From NCBI RefSeq assembly GCF_023734095.1, contig NZ_AP024620.1, forward strand, positions 1,112,501 to 1,176,500: a DNA stretch of 64,000 nucleotides. Reading direction: 5' to 3'. The notes under the pieces were generated by a model. The model searched no databases. It saw only the letters and a list, made by a program, of their open reading frames with translations, and was not told the origin of the DNA. Both the position numbers and the translations under genes were made by a program. Origin of the DNA: Moorella sp. Hama-1 (GTDB taxonomy: Bacteria > Bacillota > DSM-521 > Neomoorellales > Neomoorellaceae). This document shows, piece after piece, positions 5,814 to 62,912 of this stretch; position 1 is the first letter of the stretch; each line of letters starts with the position of its first letter.

Positions 5814-7100
5814 ATGGGTAAAATCTTAATTAAAGGCTGCACCATCATCCCCATCGCCGGCGCGGTGGTAGTTGACGGCGCCATCGCCATTGATAGCGAC
5901 CGCCTCCAATATGTCGGCCCGGCGCAGGGGGTGCCGGCAGAATGGCAGGCTGATACCGTCATCGCGGCGGAGGGGATGGCCGCCTTGCCGGGACTGGTCA
6001 ATGCCCACACCCACGCCGCCATGACGCTGTTGCGCAGCTACGCCGACGATCTGCCCTTGAAGCAATGGCTGGAAGAAAAGATCTGGCCCCGGGAAGGAGA
6101 GCTCGACCGGGAGGATATCTACTGGAGCACCCAGCTCGCTCTGCTGGAGATGATCCGCTCCGGGACCACCACCTTTGCCGATATGTATTTCCATATGGAT
6201 GCAGTGGCGGAAGCGGTGGTGGCTGCCGGTCTGCGGGGCTGCCTCAGCCAGGGGTTGATTGGCTTTCAGGATACCAGCCACAAGCGCTTGGCCACCGGCA
6301 TCAGCCTGGTTAAAGAGTGGCAGGGCGCCGGCGCGGGTCGGGTGACCACCATGCTCGGCCCCCACGCCCCCTATACCTGCCCGCCGGCATACCTGACCAG
6401 GGTGGCGGAAACAGCAGCCCGGCTGGGGGTGGGCCTACATATCCACCTGGCGGAAACCCGGGGAGAGGTTGACGAAATCAAGGCCCGTTACGGGACTACC
6501 CCGGTAGCCCTGGTCAATAAGCTGGGTCTCCTGGACCTGCCCGTCCTGGCCGCCCATTGCGTCCACCTAACCACCGAGGAAATCGCCATCCTGGCCGCGA
6601 AAAAGGCCGGCGTGGCCCACTGCCCGGAGAGCAACCTGAAGCTGGCCAGCGGCGTGGCCCCGGTGAAAGAGATGCTGGCCGCCGGCGTCAATGTAGCCCT
6701 CGGCACCGACAGCGCCGCCAGCAACAATAACCTGGACATGGTGGCTGAGACCCGGACGGCGGCCCTGCTGGCTAAAGGCATTAGCGGGGATCCGACGGCC
6801 GTTCCCGCCCACCAGGCCCTGACCATGGCCACTTTGAACGGGGCCAGAGCCCTGGGCCTGGAAAAGGAGATCGGCACCTTGGAAGCGGGTAAAAAGGCCG
6901 ACCTGATCCTGGTGGACATGCGCCAGGCCCACCTCATGCCCCCCAACGACGTGGAGGCCCACCTGGTCTATGCTGCCCGGGGGAGCGACGTGGATACCGT
7001 TATTGTCCAGGGCCGGATCCTTATGGCCGGTGGCGAAGTCAAGACCCTGGATGCTGAAAAGATTTACGCCCAGGTGACGAAGAGGATGCAAAAAGGGTAA
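5814..7100 (+). CDS. mtaD: 5-methylthioadenosine/S-adenosylhomocysteine deaminase
   Basis: 428-residue amidohydrolase of the MtaD/SsnA group, which deaminates MTA and SAH to their inosyl forms for salvage of the methylation by-products. Metal site: NAHTHAAM at about 62-69, a further His in HIHLAETRGEVDE (about 209), AHCVH (about 246), and the Asp of GTDSAASNNNLDM (about 296). The DLPLKQWLEEKIWP loop is characteristic of this family. The gene starts two bases after the ftsY stop, so it is probably co-transcribed. Related guanine or chlorohydrolase activities cannot be fully excluded, but the motif set fits MtaD best. Confidence 0.9.
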   Translation: MGKILIKGCTIIPIAGAVVVDGAIAIDSDRLQYVGPAQGVPAEWQADTVIAAEGMAALPGLVNAHTHAAMTLLRSYADDLPLKQWLEEKIWPREGELDREDIYWSTQLALLEMIRSGTTTFADMYFHMDAVAEAVVAAGLRGCLSQGLIGFQDTSHKRLATGISLVKEWQGAGAGRVTTMLGPHAPYTCPPAYLTRVAETAARLGVGLHIHLAETRGEVDEIKARYGTTPVALVNKLGLLDLPVLAAHCVHLTTEEIAILAAKKAGVAHCPESNLKLASGVAPVKEMLAAGVNVALGTDSAASNNNLDMVAETRTAALLAKGISGDPTAVPAHQALTMATLNGARALGLEKEIGTLEAGKKADLILVDMRQAHLMPPNDVEAHLVYAARGSDVDTVIVQGRILMAGGEVKTLDAEKIYAQVTKRMQKG

Positions 7101-7447
7101 AAAAAGTCCACCTCCTTCCACGCCTGCGAGGTTAGCTGCCGGGTGCGGACCAAGGATGGCCCTACCCCGCGCCCCTTTTCCCGCTACCAGGAAAACGGGC
7201 GCAGGGATTAACCCCACTACCTGGTTCCCCCGCTTCCCACCGAGGAAATTCGGCGATCAGGTGGAAGAAGTGGAATTGATGGCGTCCTTATTGTAGCACG
7301 GAGGGGCAATTTTGTTAACATAAAACTTAATGGTAAAGGTGGCGGGTTTATTCCAGCCGGTTAGCAGGGACGGCGGCCGGCATCTGCCGGGCTAACGCCC
7401 CGGTTTTCTCCCGCCTGCAAAAAAAATTTCATCCGGAGGGGATGCTA
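7101..7447. other. Intergenic region with possible coding debris
   Basis: About 340 bases. The mtaD frame stays open for 36 codons past its stop, reading CRVRTKDGPTPRPFSRY... to a TAA at 7209. This may be debris of another gene or chance. TTGTTAACATAAAAC near 7313 is AT-rich and could be part of a promoter for the next gene, but no good pair was found. Confidence 0.3.
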
Positions 7448-57034: not shown

Positions 57035-57454
57035 ATATAGAAGCGGAAAAATCTGCAGTTTTATCTTTTAATATTCATTGGAGGAACAATAACTCAAAGG
57101 AGGAATCCGTCAATGTATGTCGAAGTTTATCTATATTAGTAATTTATGGTTGGGGGGACCAGCAAATGTCGATTAAACCAAAGGTAAAAAATAACCATAT
57201 TAACCAATTAATCCCAGGGGGGGGGGGGGGGGGGGTATTTTATGTATTAGCTGTAAATATTTAGAAATAGCTTATCTTCAACTACTAAAACCTTCTTTAA
57301 ACACTAATCCTCTCTTAACAACCTGTCCAAAAATTCCACCCCTTACAGAAACCCTTCTAGCTTTTTTCCCCTTAACCAGGCGGAAAAATTGGCCAAAATT
57401 AATTCCCCGCCCACCTGAAATCAACTACAATTAGCGAACCAACATCAGGCTTTA
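57035..57454. other. AT-rich region with a 19-G run in a short ORF
   Basis: Two strong ribosome sites occur: AGGAGG before ATG 57114 (eight-codon ORF) and GGGGGG before ATG 57166. The second ORF reads MSIKPKVKNNHINQLIP, enters 19 consecutive G (57217-57235), and ends at a TAG ten codons later. With 17 or 20 G the frame would run on for about 65 codons. The composition differs from the rest of the window. Function unknown; it may be foreign or decayed DNA. Confidence 0.45.
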
Positions 57455-57540
57455 GTGAAAAAGGCAAACCACCTGAAAGGGTGGGACGCAAAGCCATGGG
57501 TCTATAGCCGTACCGGTATGACCGCCAGGCTGCCGCTAGA
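57455..57540 (+). promoter_or_regulatory. Cyclic di-GMP-I (GEMM-I) riboswitch
   Basis: Class I c-di-GMP aptamer. Conserved parts in order: AGGCAAACC (57461-57469), GAAA tetraloop (57474-57477), GTGGGACGCAAAGCC (57480-57494) and CGCCAGGCTGCCG at the 3' side (57523-57535). P1 pairs GGCA (57462-57465) with TGCC (57531-57534). A terminator follows at once, then an HD-GYP-type gene, which fits feedback on c-di-GMP turnover. A possible -10 (TACAAT) lies at 57426-57431. Confidence 0.93.
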
Positions 57541-57562
57541 TAAAGCTGTGGTTTTGTTTTTT

Positions 57563-57608
57563 AAAGGCAGCCAGGTTATGTTAACTTGGTTGCCTTTATT
57601 TATTTTTA
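57563..57608 (+). terminator. Riboswitch terminator (expression platform)
   Basis: AAAGGCAGCCAGGTTA pairs with TAACTTGGTTGCCTTT, followed by ATTTATTTTT. Its 5' arm GGCAGCC (57566-57572) is complementary to GGCTGCC in the 3' strand of the aptamer, so the two structures compete. The expected effect is terminator formation when c-di-GMP holds the aptamer closed, i.e. an OFF switch (inference). Confidence 0.88.
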
Positions 57609-57631
57609 CTAAGGATACGGGGGCGGGATAA

Positions 57632-58378
57632 ATGGAGAGCAATACGGTTGCAGAAATATTGGATGAGATCCAGAAGTTCTGGCCGGAGCTATACTTCCAT
57701 TCAATATCGGTTGCCAATTTAGCGTTAAGGATGGCCGTTGACCTAAGTGTTGAGGAAGTCCATTATAAGGATATTTTAGTTGGGGCTCTCTTACACGATG
57801 CTGGCAAGACAAAAATTAAGCGAGAAATATTGCAGAAACCGGGACCTCTAACCTCGACCGAATGGAAAGAGATAAAAAGACATCCCCGGTATGGAGCCGA
57901 GTGGATCGAGAATAGGGGTGGCAACTCCGAAGTAGCGGCGATCATCCGTTACCACCATGAAAAGTGGAATGGGGAAGGATATGTCGGGCTTAAACGCCAC
58001 CAAATCCCTTTTTTCGCCAGGATAGTGGCCATTGCCGACGCCCTCGATGCCATGACCGCGCCCCGGCCATACCGTCAAGCTGTTGAATTCAGCAGGGCCC
58101 TGGCAGAAATACATATACAGGCCGGCTTACAATTTGATGCCTCGGTATTGTCCCGGCTAAGGCAAAAAGATACCTATCGCCCGGAAACCTACAGCCATCC
58201 CCGCACCATTGAAAAGCAAAAGCAAGTAGAGAAGAACTGGCTGCAAAGGCTTATTGAGATTTATGGCGATTCATCTCACCCTTTAATAATTGCCCAAAGC
58301 CACTGGGTGGATAAGCTAGTAGCGGCCAGTTACCAGTTATCGTCAGACCCGAGGGGTGATTCTGCTGTGCAAGTTTAG
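57632..58378 (+). CDS. HD-GYP-like domain protein (degenerate GYP)
   Basis: 248 residues. HD-GYP core at about 15-165: FHSISVANLALRMA, HD in VGALLHDAGKTKI (about 55), HPRYGAEWI, and YHHEKWNGEGYVGLKRHQIP followed by ARIVAIADALDAMTAPRPYR. Metal ligands appear complete, but the name-giving GYP is GYV. HD-GYP proteins hydrolyse c-di-GMP; activity here is likely but unproven. The C-terminal 80 residues are unrecognised. It lies 24 bases behind the riboswitch terminator and is therefore the first controlled gene of the operon. Confidence 0.88.
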   Translation: MESNTVAEILDEIQKFWPELYFHSISVANLALRMAVDLSVEEVHYKDILVGALLHDAGKTKIKREILQKPGPLTSTEWKEIKRHPRYGAEWIENRGGNSEVAAIIRYHHEKWNGEGYVGLKRHQIPFFARIVAIADALDAMTAPRPYRQAVEFSRALAEIHIQAGLQFDASVLSRLRQKDTYRPETYSHPRTIEKQKQVEKNWLQRLIEIYGDSSHPLIIAQSHWVDKLVAASYQLSSDPRGDSAVQV

Positions 58379-58419
58379 GGCTCTTGGACCAAACACCGGC
58401 TTCAAAGGGGTGTTCAGGT

Positions 58420-59667
58420 ATGCAACAATGCAGCCAGTGTAACCAGAAGACCCCGGACCGTTCTTGCCTCGATTGCGATTACTTCATGAGCCCTGGCTCT
58501 TTGCGCCGGAAGCCTCCAGCGCCCATAAGAATAAGTCTGGTTACATCTGACGGGAGGCGCTATGGTGGCCGTATCCTGGTCTTAAATACTATGGAGTTGG
58601 GTTTAGAAACAAATGCTCCCGTTCCCGGTAAATATCGTATTTACCTCCAGCAGAACCTGAGCCTGGATGTAGCCGGGGTGCCCACCAGGGGCAAGAGCAA
58701 TATGCGCCTCTTTGATATCCTGGCTGTTTACCGGGACCAGGAAACAGCTACCCGCCTTGGCAGTGAAGAGTACGCTTTATTAACGGGAAGTACGGGGGAC
58801 TTTATTGAACAAGTATCCCAACTGGTCCCCGCCCACCTGCAGGATTTGGTAAAAGAGCGGCTACTTGCCGAGATCCAGAACTCTGAGATTTTGAATGCTA
58901 TGCAAGTCGGCAGGGTGCTGCGCTACGAAAAAGGACGACTTCGCCATTTGGGTGGCCAGGCTGATCTGGAATTGCCCCCAGCGGAAATAGAAAAACTGGT
59001 ACGCAAGGCGATTCGCCAGGGGGCCCACTGCCGGGAACTCATTGTGAGTAGCGATGGGCAAAGGGTTTTTGACCTCCATGGTATCCCCCTGGATCCTTAC
59101 TCCGGGGGCTTACTGGCCTTCGATATTACGGAGATTATCAATAAAGAAAGGCAGATGCGCCGGCAGGAGATGCTTGCTTACCAGGAAGCCATTGCTGCTG
59201 TTACCAATGGCCGGTTGCGGCTCTGGACTTTGGAAGAAATGGCGCCCCTGCTTTCCCAGGGACATGAGCTGGCCAGGGGTGAAGTTCAGAAAGCTGCCGA
59301 TGTTGCCCTGGCGCGGAGCAAGTTGCGCAGTTTATTACCGGCCATTTTTCATGACCGCCAGCACGGTATTTACCTGTGCCTGACCGAAGCCTTAACCAAT
59401 GCCTTAAAACACGCTGGCGGGGGCGAATGGGTAGCCAGGCATAAGGATGAAACCCTGCGCATAATTGTCCAGGACCACGGTCAGGGAATCAAGCTCAAGG
59501 ATCTGCCCAAGGCAACTCTGTTGCAACATTACTCCACAAAGGAATCCCTGGGTTGCGGGTTTACTTTAATGCTTTATTATACCGATAAACTCTACCTTGC
59601 TACGGGAAATGCTGGGACGACCCTCGTCCTCAATTTTTGTCAAGTAGCGGGGCAAAAAGCCTGTTAA
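58420..59667 (+). CDS. Zn-ribbon/PilZ-like/HATPase partner-switching kinase
   Basis: About 415 residues from the ATG at 58420 (AAAGGGG upstream); TTG 58384 is possible. In order: a Cys-x2-Cys...Cys-x2-Cys ribbon (CSQCNQ...CLDCDYF, about 4-20); a beta-rich domain of PilZ type with NTMELGLET where PilZ has D/NxSxxG; a PAS-like middle (about 190-275); and an ATPase of the SpoIIAB/RsbW kind with LTEALTNALKHAGGG, QDHGQGIKL and LGCGFTLML. There is no phospho-acceptor His. It would phosphorylate the STAS proteins downstream. The PilZ call is tentative. Confidence 0.72.
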   Translation: MQQCSQCNQKTPDRSCLDCDYFMSPGSLRRKPPAPIRISLVTSDGRRYGGRILVLNTMELGLETNAPVPGKYRIYLQQNLSLDVAGVPTRGKSNMRLFDILAVYRDQETATRLGSEEYALLTGSTGDFIEQVSQLVPAHLQDLVKERLLAEIQNSEILNAMQVGRVLRYEKGRLRHLGGQADLELPPAEIEKLVRKAIRQGAHCRELIVSSDGQRVFDLHGIPLDPYSGGLLAFDITEIINKERQMRRQEMLAYQEAIAAVTNGRLRLWTLEEMAPLLSQGHELARGEVQKAADVALARSKLRSLLPAIFHDRQHGIYLCLTEALTNALKHAGGGEWVARHKDETLRIIVQDHGQGIKLKDLPKATLLQHYSTKESLGCGFTLMLYYTDKLYLATGNAGTTLVLNFCQVAGQKAC

Positions 59668-59691
59668 ATAAAGCGAAGGGGAGGAGAGATT

Positions 59692-60021
59692 ATGCTAGTA
59701 GTTAAGGTAACCAAGGTTAATGATAGCCGCTGTTTAAACCTTGAAGGGGAGTTAGACATGGAAACCCTGGCTATGGTGGAACAGGCGACGGAAGCCCGGG
59801 ATGGAGAGTGCCAGCTCATTATCAACCTGGCGGGGGTTTCGTTTATCGATTCGACAGGTCTTAGGGGGTTGCTAACTATCCAGCGCCGGTGGTTGGCACA
59901 AGGAGGGACGGTGTACCTTATTAACCCCTCCCTGGAGGTCGCTGAGGTTTTCCACCTCGTAGGACTGGAAGAACTTTTACAGGTAACTACAGCAGAGATG
60001 GTGAAGGCAGGTGAAGATTAG
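59692..60021 (+). CDS. STAS-domain anti-anti-sigma factor (first)
   Basis: 109 residues. SpoIIAA/RsbV fold: CLNLEGELDMETLAMVEQA, and the phosphorylation loop VSFIDSTGLRGLLTI with the target Ser. The Ser would be phosphorylated by the HATPase protein and freed by the PP2C protein, whose gene starts at the next base. Confidence 0.93.
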   Translation: MLVVKVTKVNDSRCLNLEGELDMETLAMVEQATEARDGECQLIINLAGVSFIDSTGLRGLLTIQRRWLAQGGTVYLINPSLEVAEVFHLVGLEELLQVTTAEMVKAGED

Positions 60022-60723
60022 ATGACCCTGGGTACCGGTAGAATAGAAAAGCAAATAATACATGCCGGTATACAGGGAGCCGGTTGTAGTATTCCAGCGG
60101 ATGTGGAGGGGGGTGACTTTTTTGACTTTATTCCCCTGGGCGGGGAACGGCTTATTGCAGCAATAGGTGATGTAATGGGCAAAGGCAGTACGGCTGCCAG
60201 GCAAATGAAGGACCTTAGGGTAACATTGCGTGCCTGTGCCGGAAATAACATGCCACTCCTGGCGATAATGGAACAAATAAATGAAATGGGCGGGAGACGA
60301 CTTCGGCTCGCCGGGTCCTTTGCAACCTTGTGCCTTATATCTTACGAGACGCGTAATGCCTGCTTAACATCCCTTTGTGCGGGGCACCCGGCGCCTCTGG
60401 TGTTTAATGGTAGTAAGGTACATGTTCTCAAGGTGAGGGGTGTTGCCCTGGGGCTCCTGGAAGGATACCAGGGAACTGGGCCAGATGCGGTTTGTCTAGC
60501 TCCCGGGGATATAATCCTCCTGTATACAGATGGCCTGGTGGAAGCCCGCAATGGGCAGGGACAAACCTATGGTTTAAGGCGCCTGGAGGAAATAACTTCA
60601 GCAAATTCCTGCCACAATGCAACCGAACTGCGGGAAATTATCTTGAACGATTTATTTACCTTTACTGGCTGTAGGCAGCAAAGGGATGATGTCACCCTGG
60701 TAGTGCTGAAGACGGGCAGGTGA
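60022..60723 (+). CDS. PP2C/SpoIIE-type serine phosphatase
   Basis: 233 residues without sensor domain or membrane segments. Metal-binding Asp in VEGGDFFDFIPL, IGDVMGKGSTAARQMK, AGHPAPLVFNG, LYTDGLVEARN and QRDDVTLVVLK: all PPM catalytic motifs are kept. It dephosphorylates the STAS proteins on both sides of it. The start directly follows the stop of the first STAS gene. Confidence 0.93.
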   Translation: MTLGTGRIEKQIIHAGIQGAGCSIPADVEGGDFFDFIPLGGERLIAAIGDVMGKGSTAARQMKDLRVTLRACAGNNMPLLAIMEQINEMGGRRLRLAGSFATLCLISYETRNACLTSLCAGHPAPLVFNGSKVHVLKVRGVALGLLEGYQGTGPDAVCLAPGDIILLYTDGLVEARNGQGQTYGLRRLEEITSANSCHNATELREIILNDLFTFTGCRQQRDDVTLVVLKTGR

Positions 60724-60729
60724 AAGCAG

Positions 60730-61059
60730 GTGAATGGTTTGGAAGTAAGAGTATATACAGAAAAGGACAAGACTGTCCTGCAGGTAGCGGGAGAGCTTGA
60801 TTTTAGCAATATCAACTTGTTACAGCAAGAGATTGAACGCCAGGAAACAAGAACGGTAGAAATAGATTGCGGCGATTTGCAGTTTATGGATTCCTCCGGG
60901 GCAGGTATGCTCCTTTCCATGGCCAGGATCCTGGACCTGCAAAACCGCACACTTAAGGTTACCCATATACCTGAGCCTATTCGCCATGACCTAGAAATAA
61001 TCGGCTTTTTCCGCGTTTTAGAAACCCTTAAGGCATCCCGCTGGACCGGAGGGAATTAA
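60730..61059 (+). CDS. STAS-domain anti-anti-sigma factor (second)
   Basis: 109 residues: LQVAGELDFSNINLLQQEIE, and LQFMDSSGAGMLLSMARIL with a Ser at the phospho-site. It differs markedly from the first STAS protein, so the two may have separate partners. The TAATGG junction gives a one-base overlap with the FapA gene. Confidence 0.92.
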   Translation: MNGLEVRVYTEKDKTVLQVAGELDFSNINLLQQEIERQETRTVEIDCGDLQFMDSSGAGMLLSMARILDLQNRTLKVTHIPEPIRHDLEIIGFFRVLETLKASRWTGGN

Positions 61060-62912
61060 TGGTGGGGGGAAGTCATACGCAAGATAGCATTGCAACGAGG
61101 GCTCTGAACCTGGCTCCGGATAGTACCGGCGCTAACAACTTGTCAGCTACGGTAGCGATTATTGACGGGTACCCGGTTATAAAGCACCCGCCGGGAGGAC
61201 CCTACCCGGTGATAGTACCCTGCCAGGGATTGCGCTTGGTGGTAAACGGCAGGGAACGAAAGGAACCAACGCCTGTAACTGTAGAAGACAAAGTGGAAAT
61301 ACTTCCCGTTGATGAAAGGCAGGAGGGATACTGGCGCGTAAAGGTTAGTGGGAATAAGCTCGAAGTTTTACTGCAAATGCAACCCGGCGTAATACGGCGC
61401 CGGCGCCTTAAAGATTTGCCGCCAGCCCAGGTTTTGCAACTTGAAACCATGGAGCAAGAGAGTTTCTATACACCCTTCACCCTGGAGGATCTGGTCCGGG
61501 AGCTTAAAAGCCAGGGTATCCAGTACGGTATCGACTGGCAGGCGTGTGCCCGTCTGGCCGAAGCACCGGCAGAAGGGACCTGGACCATTGCCCGTGGCCA
61601 ACCGGCTTTGCCAGGTAAGGATGCCACTGTTGTATTATTATTTACCACCCAGGACAAGGTGCCTGTAACCATCAAAGAGGAAGAGCAGAACGTTAACTTT
61701 CGTGAGCGCTTTCAATTTACCTCGGTTGAACCCGGCACGGTCCTGGCCAGGAAACATCCTGTTACCAAAGGCCAGCCAGGGAGGGCCGTAACGGGAGAAA
61801 TAATCCTGCCACCGGAGCCCCGGGAAATTGGACTGGTTGCCCTACAGGGTGCCATTCTAAGCGAGAATGGTTTAGAAGTGGTAGCCGCCAGGGCGGGACG
61901 GCCTGTAGCCAGGAAAACAAAAGATCGGGTAATTATCGAGGTAATCCCGGCCCTGTGCCACGGTGGCAATGTTGATCTTACTTCGGGTAATATCACCTTC
62001 AGCGGCGATGTAATTATAGCAGGGCAGGTTGAAGAAGGGATGGCTATTGAGGCGGGAGGGAATGTGTATGTGGGGGATACCATATCCAGGGCTATGGTCC
62101 GGGCAGGAGGTTCCATTGAGGTGGCCGGCAATGTCTTTGTCTCGGTACTGGCTGCCGGGGGTACTACCGCCTTCCAGCAGAGGTTGAGCCCGCTCCTGGC
62201 AAGGATTGCTGATGACCTGGAACGATTGATTGCCGCTATTAAGCAGCTACTAAGACACCCTTCCCTTAAGAAAGATGACCTTAAGGGCGGGATTGGCCCC
62301 TTGGTACTTTTACTTATGGAAAAGAAGTTTCAAGACCTTGCTTCTACCGTAGAATTGTTGCAGAAAGAGGCGCAAAGACTGCCTTCAATACCCTTGGGTG
62401 CGCCGGAAGGACTCATAAACGATTTAGAATATCTGGCCCGTTCGCCTTTGGCCATTAAGAGGATGGGATACCTGGAAGCGATGCTCAAAAAGGTTACAAC
62501 CTGGCGGGAGGATATTGGTGCAACTCCCCAGGTCGAGGCCGATGTTACCATTAATTACGCAGTTAATTCTACCATTGTGGCTACCGGCAATATAAAGGTA
62601 GTGGGAGATGGCTGTTACCACTCCCGACTGCAAGCCGGGAAGTCAGTAACCATAAACGGTGTTTTTCGCGGCGGCGAGCTCCAGGCCCAGGGTGATATTT
62701 ATATCAGGGAACTTGGTTCCCGCAGCGGCACAGAAACTAGGGTTGTCACCCGGGCCGGAGCCAGGGTGACGGCAGGTCATGTTTTCGAAAATACATCCAT
62801 TCAAATAGGGCCGCGCCTGCATTCTTTTAACCAGGAGGAACGGGGAGTCAGCTTATGGCTTGACAGGGAAGGGGAGATTATTAAACATTATTTCACAACG
62901 CCCGTGTTGTAG
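61059..62912 (+). CDS. fapA: FapA-domain (DUF342) protein
   Basis: 617 residues. After an N-terminal region of about 130 residues comes the DUF342/FapA domain. Markers: FTLEDLVRELKSQGIQYGID, ARKHPVTKGQPGRAVTGEI, and a right-handed beta-helix at about 290-365 (NVDLTSGNITFSGDVIIAGQ, EAGGNVYVGDTISRAMVRAG). A helical hairpin is inserted at about 370-480, and the beta-helix resumes (VATGNIKVVGDGCYHS). Such proteins form scaffolds at the cell pole or membrane and act with phosphatase/STAS modules. Last gene of the riboswitch operon. Confidence 0.88.
   Translation: MVGGSHTQDSIATRALNLAPDSTGANNLSATVAIIDGYPVIKHPPGGPYPVIVPCQGLRLVVNGRERKEPTPVTVEDKVEILPVDERQEGYWRVKVSGNKLEVLLQMQPGVIRRRRLKDLPPAQVLQLETMEQESFYTPFTLEDLVRELKSQGIQYGIDWQACARLAEAPAEGTWTIARGQPALPGKDATVVLLFTTQDKVPVTIKEEEQNVNFRERFQFTSVEPGTVLARKHPVTKGQPGRAVTGEIILPPEPREIGLVALQGAILSENGLEVVAARAGRPVARKTKDRVIIEVIPALCHGGNVDLTSGNITFSGDVIIAGQVEEGMAIEAGGNVYVGDTISRAMVRAGGSIEVAGNVFVSVLAAGGTTAFQQRLSPLLARIADDLERLIAAIKQLLRHPSLKKDDLKGGIGPLVLLLMEKKFQDLASTVELLQKEAQRLPSIPLGAPEGLINDLEYLARSPLAIKRMGYLEAMLKKVTTWREDIGATPQVEADVTINYAVNSTIVATGNIKVVGDGCYHSRLQAGKSVTINGVFRGGELQAQGDIYIRELGSRSGTETRVVTRAGARVTAGHVFENTSIQIGPRLHSFNQEERGVSLWLDREGEIIKHYFTTPVL

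Follow-up and report, generated by a model that had tools for sequence, protein, structure and literature searches.

Class I riboswitches for cyclic di-GMP (c-di-GMP), also known as GEMM-I elements, have been described in front of motility and adhesion genes and only rarely in front of genes for c-di-GMP enzymes (PMC6366702). In Clostridium difficile, 7/7 functional class I switches act as OFF switches; ON-acting members exist, namely Bc2 of Bacillus thuringiensis and one of the two in Vibrio cholerae (PMC6366702). Here we analyze a 64,000-nt stretch of the genome of Moorella sp. Hama-1 (contig NZ_AP024620.1; hereafter the window, whose own numbering is used throughout), in which such an aptamer precedes six adjacent genes encoding an HD-GYP-like protein, a kinase-type ATPase, two STAS proteins, a PP2C phosphatase and FapA. 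The closest described riboswitch is the C. difficile Cd1 OFF switch of the flgB operon, which shares with this one its aptamer class, ligand bases, use of termination, predicted OFF direction and motility context (PMC6366702); the two differ in their client, which here is an operon for FapA and a partner switch that also holds an HD-GYP gene.

Partner switches of the SpoIIAB/SpoIIAA/SpoIIE and RsbW/V/U types likewise combine in one operon a HATPase_c_2 kinase, STAS substrates with a DS(S/T)G motif and a PP2C phosphatase. The operon described here differs from them by its two STAS proteins, a kinase with Cys4 and PAS-like parts, the constant presence of FapA, a riboswitch in front and the fact that no sigma factor was recognized in it. 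The HsbR-HsbA-HsbD/FlgM switch of Pseudomonas aeruginosa is also tied to c-di-GMP and flagellar motility; it acts on a cyclase, with c-di-GMP downstream, whereas in Moorella c-di-GMP would stand upstream, through the RNA, and the linked enzyme is an HD-GYP protein (PMC6482189). As for FapA, the Vibrio protein is bound only by the dephosphorylated form of EIIA-Glc (PMC6877527). That system offers both a member of the same family and a precedent for partner binding in one phospho-state only, although its partner belongs to the phosphotransferase system whereas a STAS partner is proposed here by analogy. Every part of the Moorella operon is thus of a known kind, but our literature search, which left most subscription papers outside, found no description of the combination and no paper in which c-di-GMP is connected with partner switching, STAS and PP2C.

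The covariance model of the c-di-GMP-I family (RF01051) scored 79.2 bits at positions 57454-57538, against a gathering cut-off of 35. The model of the c-di-GMP-I-GGC variant (RF03167) reached 70.3 bits at the same site (cut-off 59) and was the family named in the cmscan listing because its E-value was lower, even though the bit score of RF01051 was higher. At the pocket base that discriminates the two families, the window reads CGCAAAG, which is canonical for c-di-GMP-I, whereas the GGC consensus is CGCGAA; this base and the higher RF01051 score ruled out a GGC variant or an orphan ligand class. The ligand bases, carried by AAAGGC, CGCAAAG and CUGCC, correspond to G20, A47 and C92 in Vc2 numbering, and CGCAAA is kept in 24/24 aptamer loci. 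The 3.32-Mb genome contains nine RF01051 matches above cut-off, and the other aptamers precede genes for a chemotaxis receptor (MCP), T2SS-F, HD and flagellar proteins. By our arithmetic, the chance of finding an aptamer within 500 nt upstream of a given operon, on the correct strand, is about 0.07%, to be compared with the 24 of 27 homologous loci in which one was observed. The region 5' of the aptamer yielded no consensus sigma-70 promoter, and promoter-like sites there did not outnumber those in shuffled sequences. The aptamer lies in an intergenic stretch of about 1 kb that also holds a run of 19 G (57217-57235), some 220 nt 5' of it.

The terminator announced in the original prediction, a first reading of the bare sequence, is present downstream of the aptamer, with a hairpin of −23.2 kcal/mol followed by a U-tract. 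Its 5' arm includes GGCAGCC, which is perfectly complementary to the aptamer 3' strand at GGCUGCC, a pairing equaled in only 0.7% of shuffles. The resulting anti-terminator duplex (−19.9 kcal/mol) and the terminator hairpin are mutually exclusive, and a transcript that stops with the 5' arm folds into the anti-terminator hairpin, which destroys the ligand pocket as well as the P3 base. Because the terminator excludes the structure that uses the aptamer 3' strand, the ligand should favor termination. The sequence strongly supports a transcription-termination OFF switch, by which high c-di-GMP should silence the operon. When 24 loci were tested, the two strands paired better than 97% or more of the shuffles in 17 of them. 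The terminator and the same anti-terminator design, built each time from its own loop and spacer sequences, were found in other Moorella loci and in distant families (L086, L120, L124, L125, L127 and L136).

The six genes follow each other with intergenic gaps of 41, 24, 0, 6 and −1 nt, and no second terminator of similar strength was found between them (table 1). We placed the start of the ATPase gene at a conserved ATG, the mechanically called open reading frame beginning at a TTG further upstream; a cytochrome-c-like gene begins 105 nt downstream of FapA. This RNA and operon anatomy is well supported by the sequence. It bears out the original prediction as to the GEMM-I class and position of the aptamer and the identity and order of the six genes, and agrees with its idea that c-di-GMP would gate a complete partner switch together with a possible hydrolase of the messenger.

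Table 1. Features of the riboswitch and of the operon that follows it (window coordinates)
Feature	Position	Strand	Remarks
c-di-GMP-I (GEMM-I) riboswitch aptamer	57454..57538	+	Rfam match; ligand-pocket bases canonical
Aptamer 3' strand GGCUGCC (P3 base and ligand-pocket C)	57528..57534	+	Able to pair with terminator 5' arm, giving the anti-terminator
Intrinsic terminator and U-rich tail	57562..57606	+	5' arm includes GGCAGCC; hairpin 57562-57598
HD-GYP-like protein, 248 aa	57632..58378	+	HD_5, 2e-29
Kinase-type ATPase, 415 aa	58420..59667	+	HATPase_c_2; Cys4 and N-domain of unknown family, PAS-like middle
STAS protein 1, DSTG motif	59692..60021	+	STAS, 5.8e-15; motif invariant in relatives
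SpoIIE/RsbU-type PP2C phosphatase, 233 aa, catalytic domain only	60022..60723	+	PF07228, 7.4e-39
STAS protein 2, DSSG motif	60730..61059	+	STAS, 2.7e-16
FapA (DUF342-type), 617 aa	61059..62912	+	FapA_N, 1.5e-41; FapA, 7.4e-34; in the riboswitch-linked clade of the tree

Searching with the ATPase recovered the operon from eleven genomes of the family group, with the aptamer upstream in 11/11, and a profile of the ATPase N-domain matched 30 of the 398 genomes of a phylum sample. Together with 18 further neighborhoods and three from the same order, the main-branch set amounts to 27 loci from ten family groups (one of them, L130, comprises the aptamer and the ATPase N-domain before a contig edge cuts it short). 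Of these loci, 24, representing eight family groups, carry the aptamer ahead of the module, and the gene order, which the original prediction proposed to look for in relatives, is shared across many families. A phylogenetic tree of the ATPase separates this main branch from a divergent one (support 100/99), in which five loci (L131-L135) encode the ATPase, STAS, PP2C and FapA together, in other gene orders. The sole divergent locus with an aptamer is L135, where it lies about 440 nt before the first module gene, which encodes a 686-aa protein with a PP2C domain. One member of the family (G015/L046) groups with other families in the tree, a placement suggestive of horizontal transfer.

Which gene does the riboswitch serve? 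The FapA of the window matches both FapA_N (PF20250, 142.1 bits) and the beta-solenoid domain (PF03961, 118 bits) above cut-off; this family, named flagellar assembly protein A in Pfam, is unrelated to the Pseudomonas amyloid FapA. In two genomes, G016 (L137) and G003 (L138), the aptamer lies directly 5' of FapA with no kinase, STAS or PP2C gene in between (the FapA frame of G003 is broken near 1693), and both FapAs fall inside the module FapA clade (22 rows, support 99/95). Non-module FapA paralogs sampled from the same family (L141-L143) fall outside this clade and no aptamer was found before them; the Moorella genome itself encodes one FapA of each kind, the non-module paralog having a Jag_N domain. 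The presence of the aptamer directly before module-clade FapAs in G016 and G003, and before none of the other paralogs, argues that the riboswitch has FapA as its constant client, and neither the HD-GYP protein nor the partner switch. At G020 (L088), the riboswitch, a broken HD-GYP gene, one STAS gene and FapA remain, whereas PP2C and the catalytic domain of the kinase are missing. Ahead of its riboswitch and FapA, G016 also encodes an RsbR/S/T/X-like set and, after it, GGDEF and GGDEF-EAL genes (L137:4041-8930), which brings a stressosome-like set, enzymes of c-di-GMP metabolism and a riboswitch for this messenger into a single row.

The HD-GYP gene is the first of the Moorella operon but proved dispensable. 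It is present in the window and in L039-L041, L043, L086, L087, L119, L122-L124, L126, L127, L129 and L136, decayed in L042 (two in-frame stops), L088 (a break) and L044 (start remnant only), and absent from L037, L038, L045, L046, L120, L121, L125 and L128. Many loci thus keep the aptamer without an intact HD-GYP gene, which ruled out the riboswitch being a property of the latter. The metal ligands H23, H55, D56, H84, H108, H109 and D136 are invariant across five aligned sequences, at positions matching PmGH (4mcw), and the protein may be a c-di-GMP hydrolase. With an OFF switch, such a hydrolase would be made only at low c-di-GMP, and its feedback would be of the positive and not the homeostatic kind. 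Elsewhere in the Moorella genome, a second GEMM-I aptamer precedes a stand-alone HD-GYP-like gene (L050:5596-6162, minus strand) whose product is 45% identical to that of the window.

The active-site motifs of the partner-switch proteins are intact: the N, G1 and G2 boxes of the ATPase, the GGD, DVMGKG, YTDGL and DDVTL motifs of PP2C and DS(S/T)G in both STAS proteins. A kinase, STAS proteins and a phosphatase of the SpoIIAA/AB/E type are found together in one operon. The nearest solved proteins to the ATPase are chains of the anti-sigma F factor SpoIIAB, and the nearest named locus is that of Moorella thermoacetica DSM 21394 (86% identity in the ATPase). The likeness to SpoIIAA/SpoIIAB/SpoIIE put forward in the original prediction holds for the domains but leaves a sigma output hypothetical: no sigma factor was recognized among the operon genes of the window and its relatives, a search that did not take in every neighboring open reading frame or unlinked sigma factors. 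Since the PP2C of the operon lacks a sensor domain, input probably enters through the Cys4 N-domain of the ATPase and its PAS-like domain. This N-domain had no Pfam match in ten members. A PilZ domain, suggested by RR and NxxExG motifs at the N-terminus, was rejected for want of a Pfam match and with an hhalign probability of 0.2%, obtained with a narrow local PilZ alignment that a very distant PilZ fold could escape; an AlphaFold2 model built from two sequences reached a pLDDT of only 39.6 and was not used.

In L136, the ATPase is replaced by a single membrane protein with transmembrane, HD, PAS-like and HATPase parts (L136:7468-9588), a fusion that supports a tie between HD and kinase functions. 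This protein also has a MASE9-like region, as does a membrane protein of L121 (L121:27-1832), the one in which this region gave a match; the L121 protein combines it with HD-GYP-like and PAS-like parts and appears broken before the HATPase. Both loci hold an extra STAS gene adjoining a DUF5317-type gene. An insertion of about 1.4 kb, likely a mobile element, splits the ATPase gene of one Moorella genome near codon 380 (L038:4905-6283).

From these sequences we infer that the RNA binds c-di-GMP in vivo and works in the OFF direction, that the STAS proteins undergo phospho-cycling and have FapA as their target, and that phosphodiesterase feedback occurs, all of which can be arranged as follows. 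Bound c-di-GMP would lock the aptamer 3' strand, so that the terminator forms and transcription stops, whereas at low c-di-GMP this strand would capture the 5' arm of the terminator and transcription would run on through the six genes, a step strongly supported by the sequence. The ATPase would then phosphorylate one or both STAS proteins and PP2C would dephosphorylate them, as in SpoIIAB/SpoIIAA/SpoIIE, which the intact active sites support. The STAS output may act on the last-encoded FapA paralog, which would then come under two controls, a transcriptional one through c-di-GMP and a post-translational one through the partner switch. Optionally, the HD-GYP protein would lower c-di-GMP and reinforce its own expression, giving a self-sustaining low-c-di-GMP state. 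We give about even chances to this overall reading, that is, an operon of the low-c-di-GMP (planktonic or motile) state, held by a c-di-GMP OFF riboswitch, whose partner switch probably regulates a FapA paralog post-translationally, with optional HD-GYP feedback. A more specific form of it is tentative: a non-sigma switch, made of the SpoIIAB-like kinase, PP2C and STAS, that controls a polar or flagellar FapA under c-di-GMP OFF gating, is self-reinforcing and possibly bistable where the HD-GYP protein is present, and receives its signal through a new input domain, the ATPase N-domain. A FapA-mediated output at the pole or cell surface is plausible. All 31 module genomes encode flagellin, compared with 321/396 (81%) in the phylum sample, a difference uncorrected for relatedness; this association and the other GEMM-I targets of the Moorella genome are consistent with a motility output.

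Several observations weigh against this reading. Only the linkage of the genes and analogy point to FapA as the putative target of the partner switch. In place of the canonical HHExxDGxGYP signature, the HD-GYP protein has HHEKWNGEGYV in the window and HHERWDGxGYx in most relatives. In L087, L121, L122, L128, L129, L130 and L137, the pairing expected of an OFF switch is weak or cannot be seen. No aptamer, even to an E-value of 0.1, precedes the module in the main-branch L119, L123 and L126, and 4/5 divergent-branch loci also lack it; the module can therefore work without the riboswitch. Conversely, the persistence of FapA without the partner switch could mean that the two act independently. 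For G016 and G003, loss of the partner switch is the simpler account, but the inner forks of the tree (90/92 and 91/88) fall short of proof, and it may never have been present there. In one alternative reading, the riboswitch would serve FapA alone and the partner switch would be an independent module co-transcribed for convenience; the aptamer directly before FapA in these two genomes speaks for it. We consider this improbable because the order ATPase-STAS-PP2C-STAS-FapA is kept over many family groups, and FapA remains beside the kinase and STAS genes even in the divergent, mostly riboswitch-free branch.

An unlikely, though more serious, alternative is that the STAS/ATPase/PP2C set governs an unlinked sigma factor (e.g., SigD/FliA through an anti-sigma factor, in the way that HsbA works through FlgM), FapA being merely a co-expressed effector. 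The proximity of the HATPase to SpoIIAB among solved proteins speaks for such an output, as does Pseudomonas HsbA, whose binding partner is either FlgM or the diguanylate cyclase HsbD, depending on its phospho-state (PMC6482189). However, no sigma or anti-sigma gene was recognized in the operons examined while FapA was always there, and an ATPase of 415 aa with two extra domains is unlike a bare anti-sigma factor. A homeostatic circuit, in which high c-di-GMP would turn the operon ON and the HD-GYP protein would then lower it, is very improbable: the position of the HD-GYP gene at the head of the operon and the ON-acting switches of B. thuringiensis (Bc2) and V. cholerae (one of two) (PMC6366702) would agree with it, but the terminator/anti-terminator geometry suits an OFF switch and the riboswitch stays where the HD-GYP gene is missing, as it is in many loci.

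Other RNA elements were noted in passing. Three half-GEMM elements lie near 2245690, 2259698 and 2266492 of the Moorella genome (one in L054, two in L055); they keep GGCAAACC-GAAA-GGGACGCAAAGC or nearly so, P3 being replaced by a different sequence, and at least two of them precede genes of an agr-like system (GHKL kinase, regulator, AgrB-like). On the minus strand of the window, a strong c-di-AMP riboswitch (7107-7265, 82 bits) faces the 3' end of a convergent amidohydrolase gene (5814-7100, plus strand), with no recognizable sense gene directly downstream, and may act in antisense.

Taken as proposed, this locus would join RNA-level sensing of c-di-GMP to a protein phosphorylation switch within one operon, and the riboswitch has been retained with the kinase-phosphatase switch and FapA over several bacterial families. 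For FapA, which is widespread but whose mechanism is unclear, it would provide both a candidate function and a candidate partner, in a system made testable by its short OFF leaders and by a close relative, Moorella thermoacetica.

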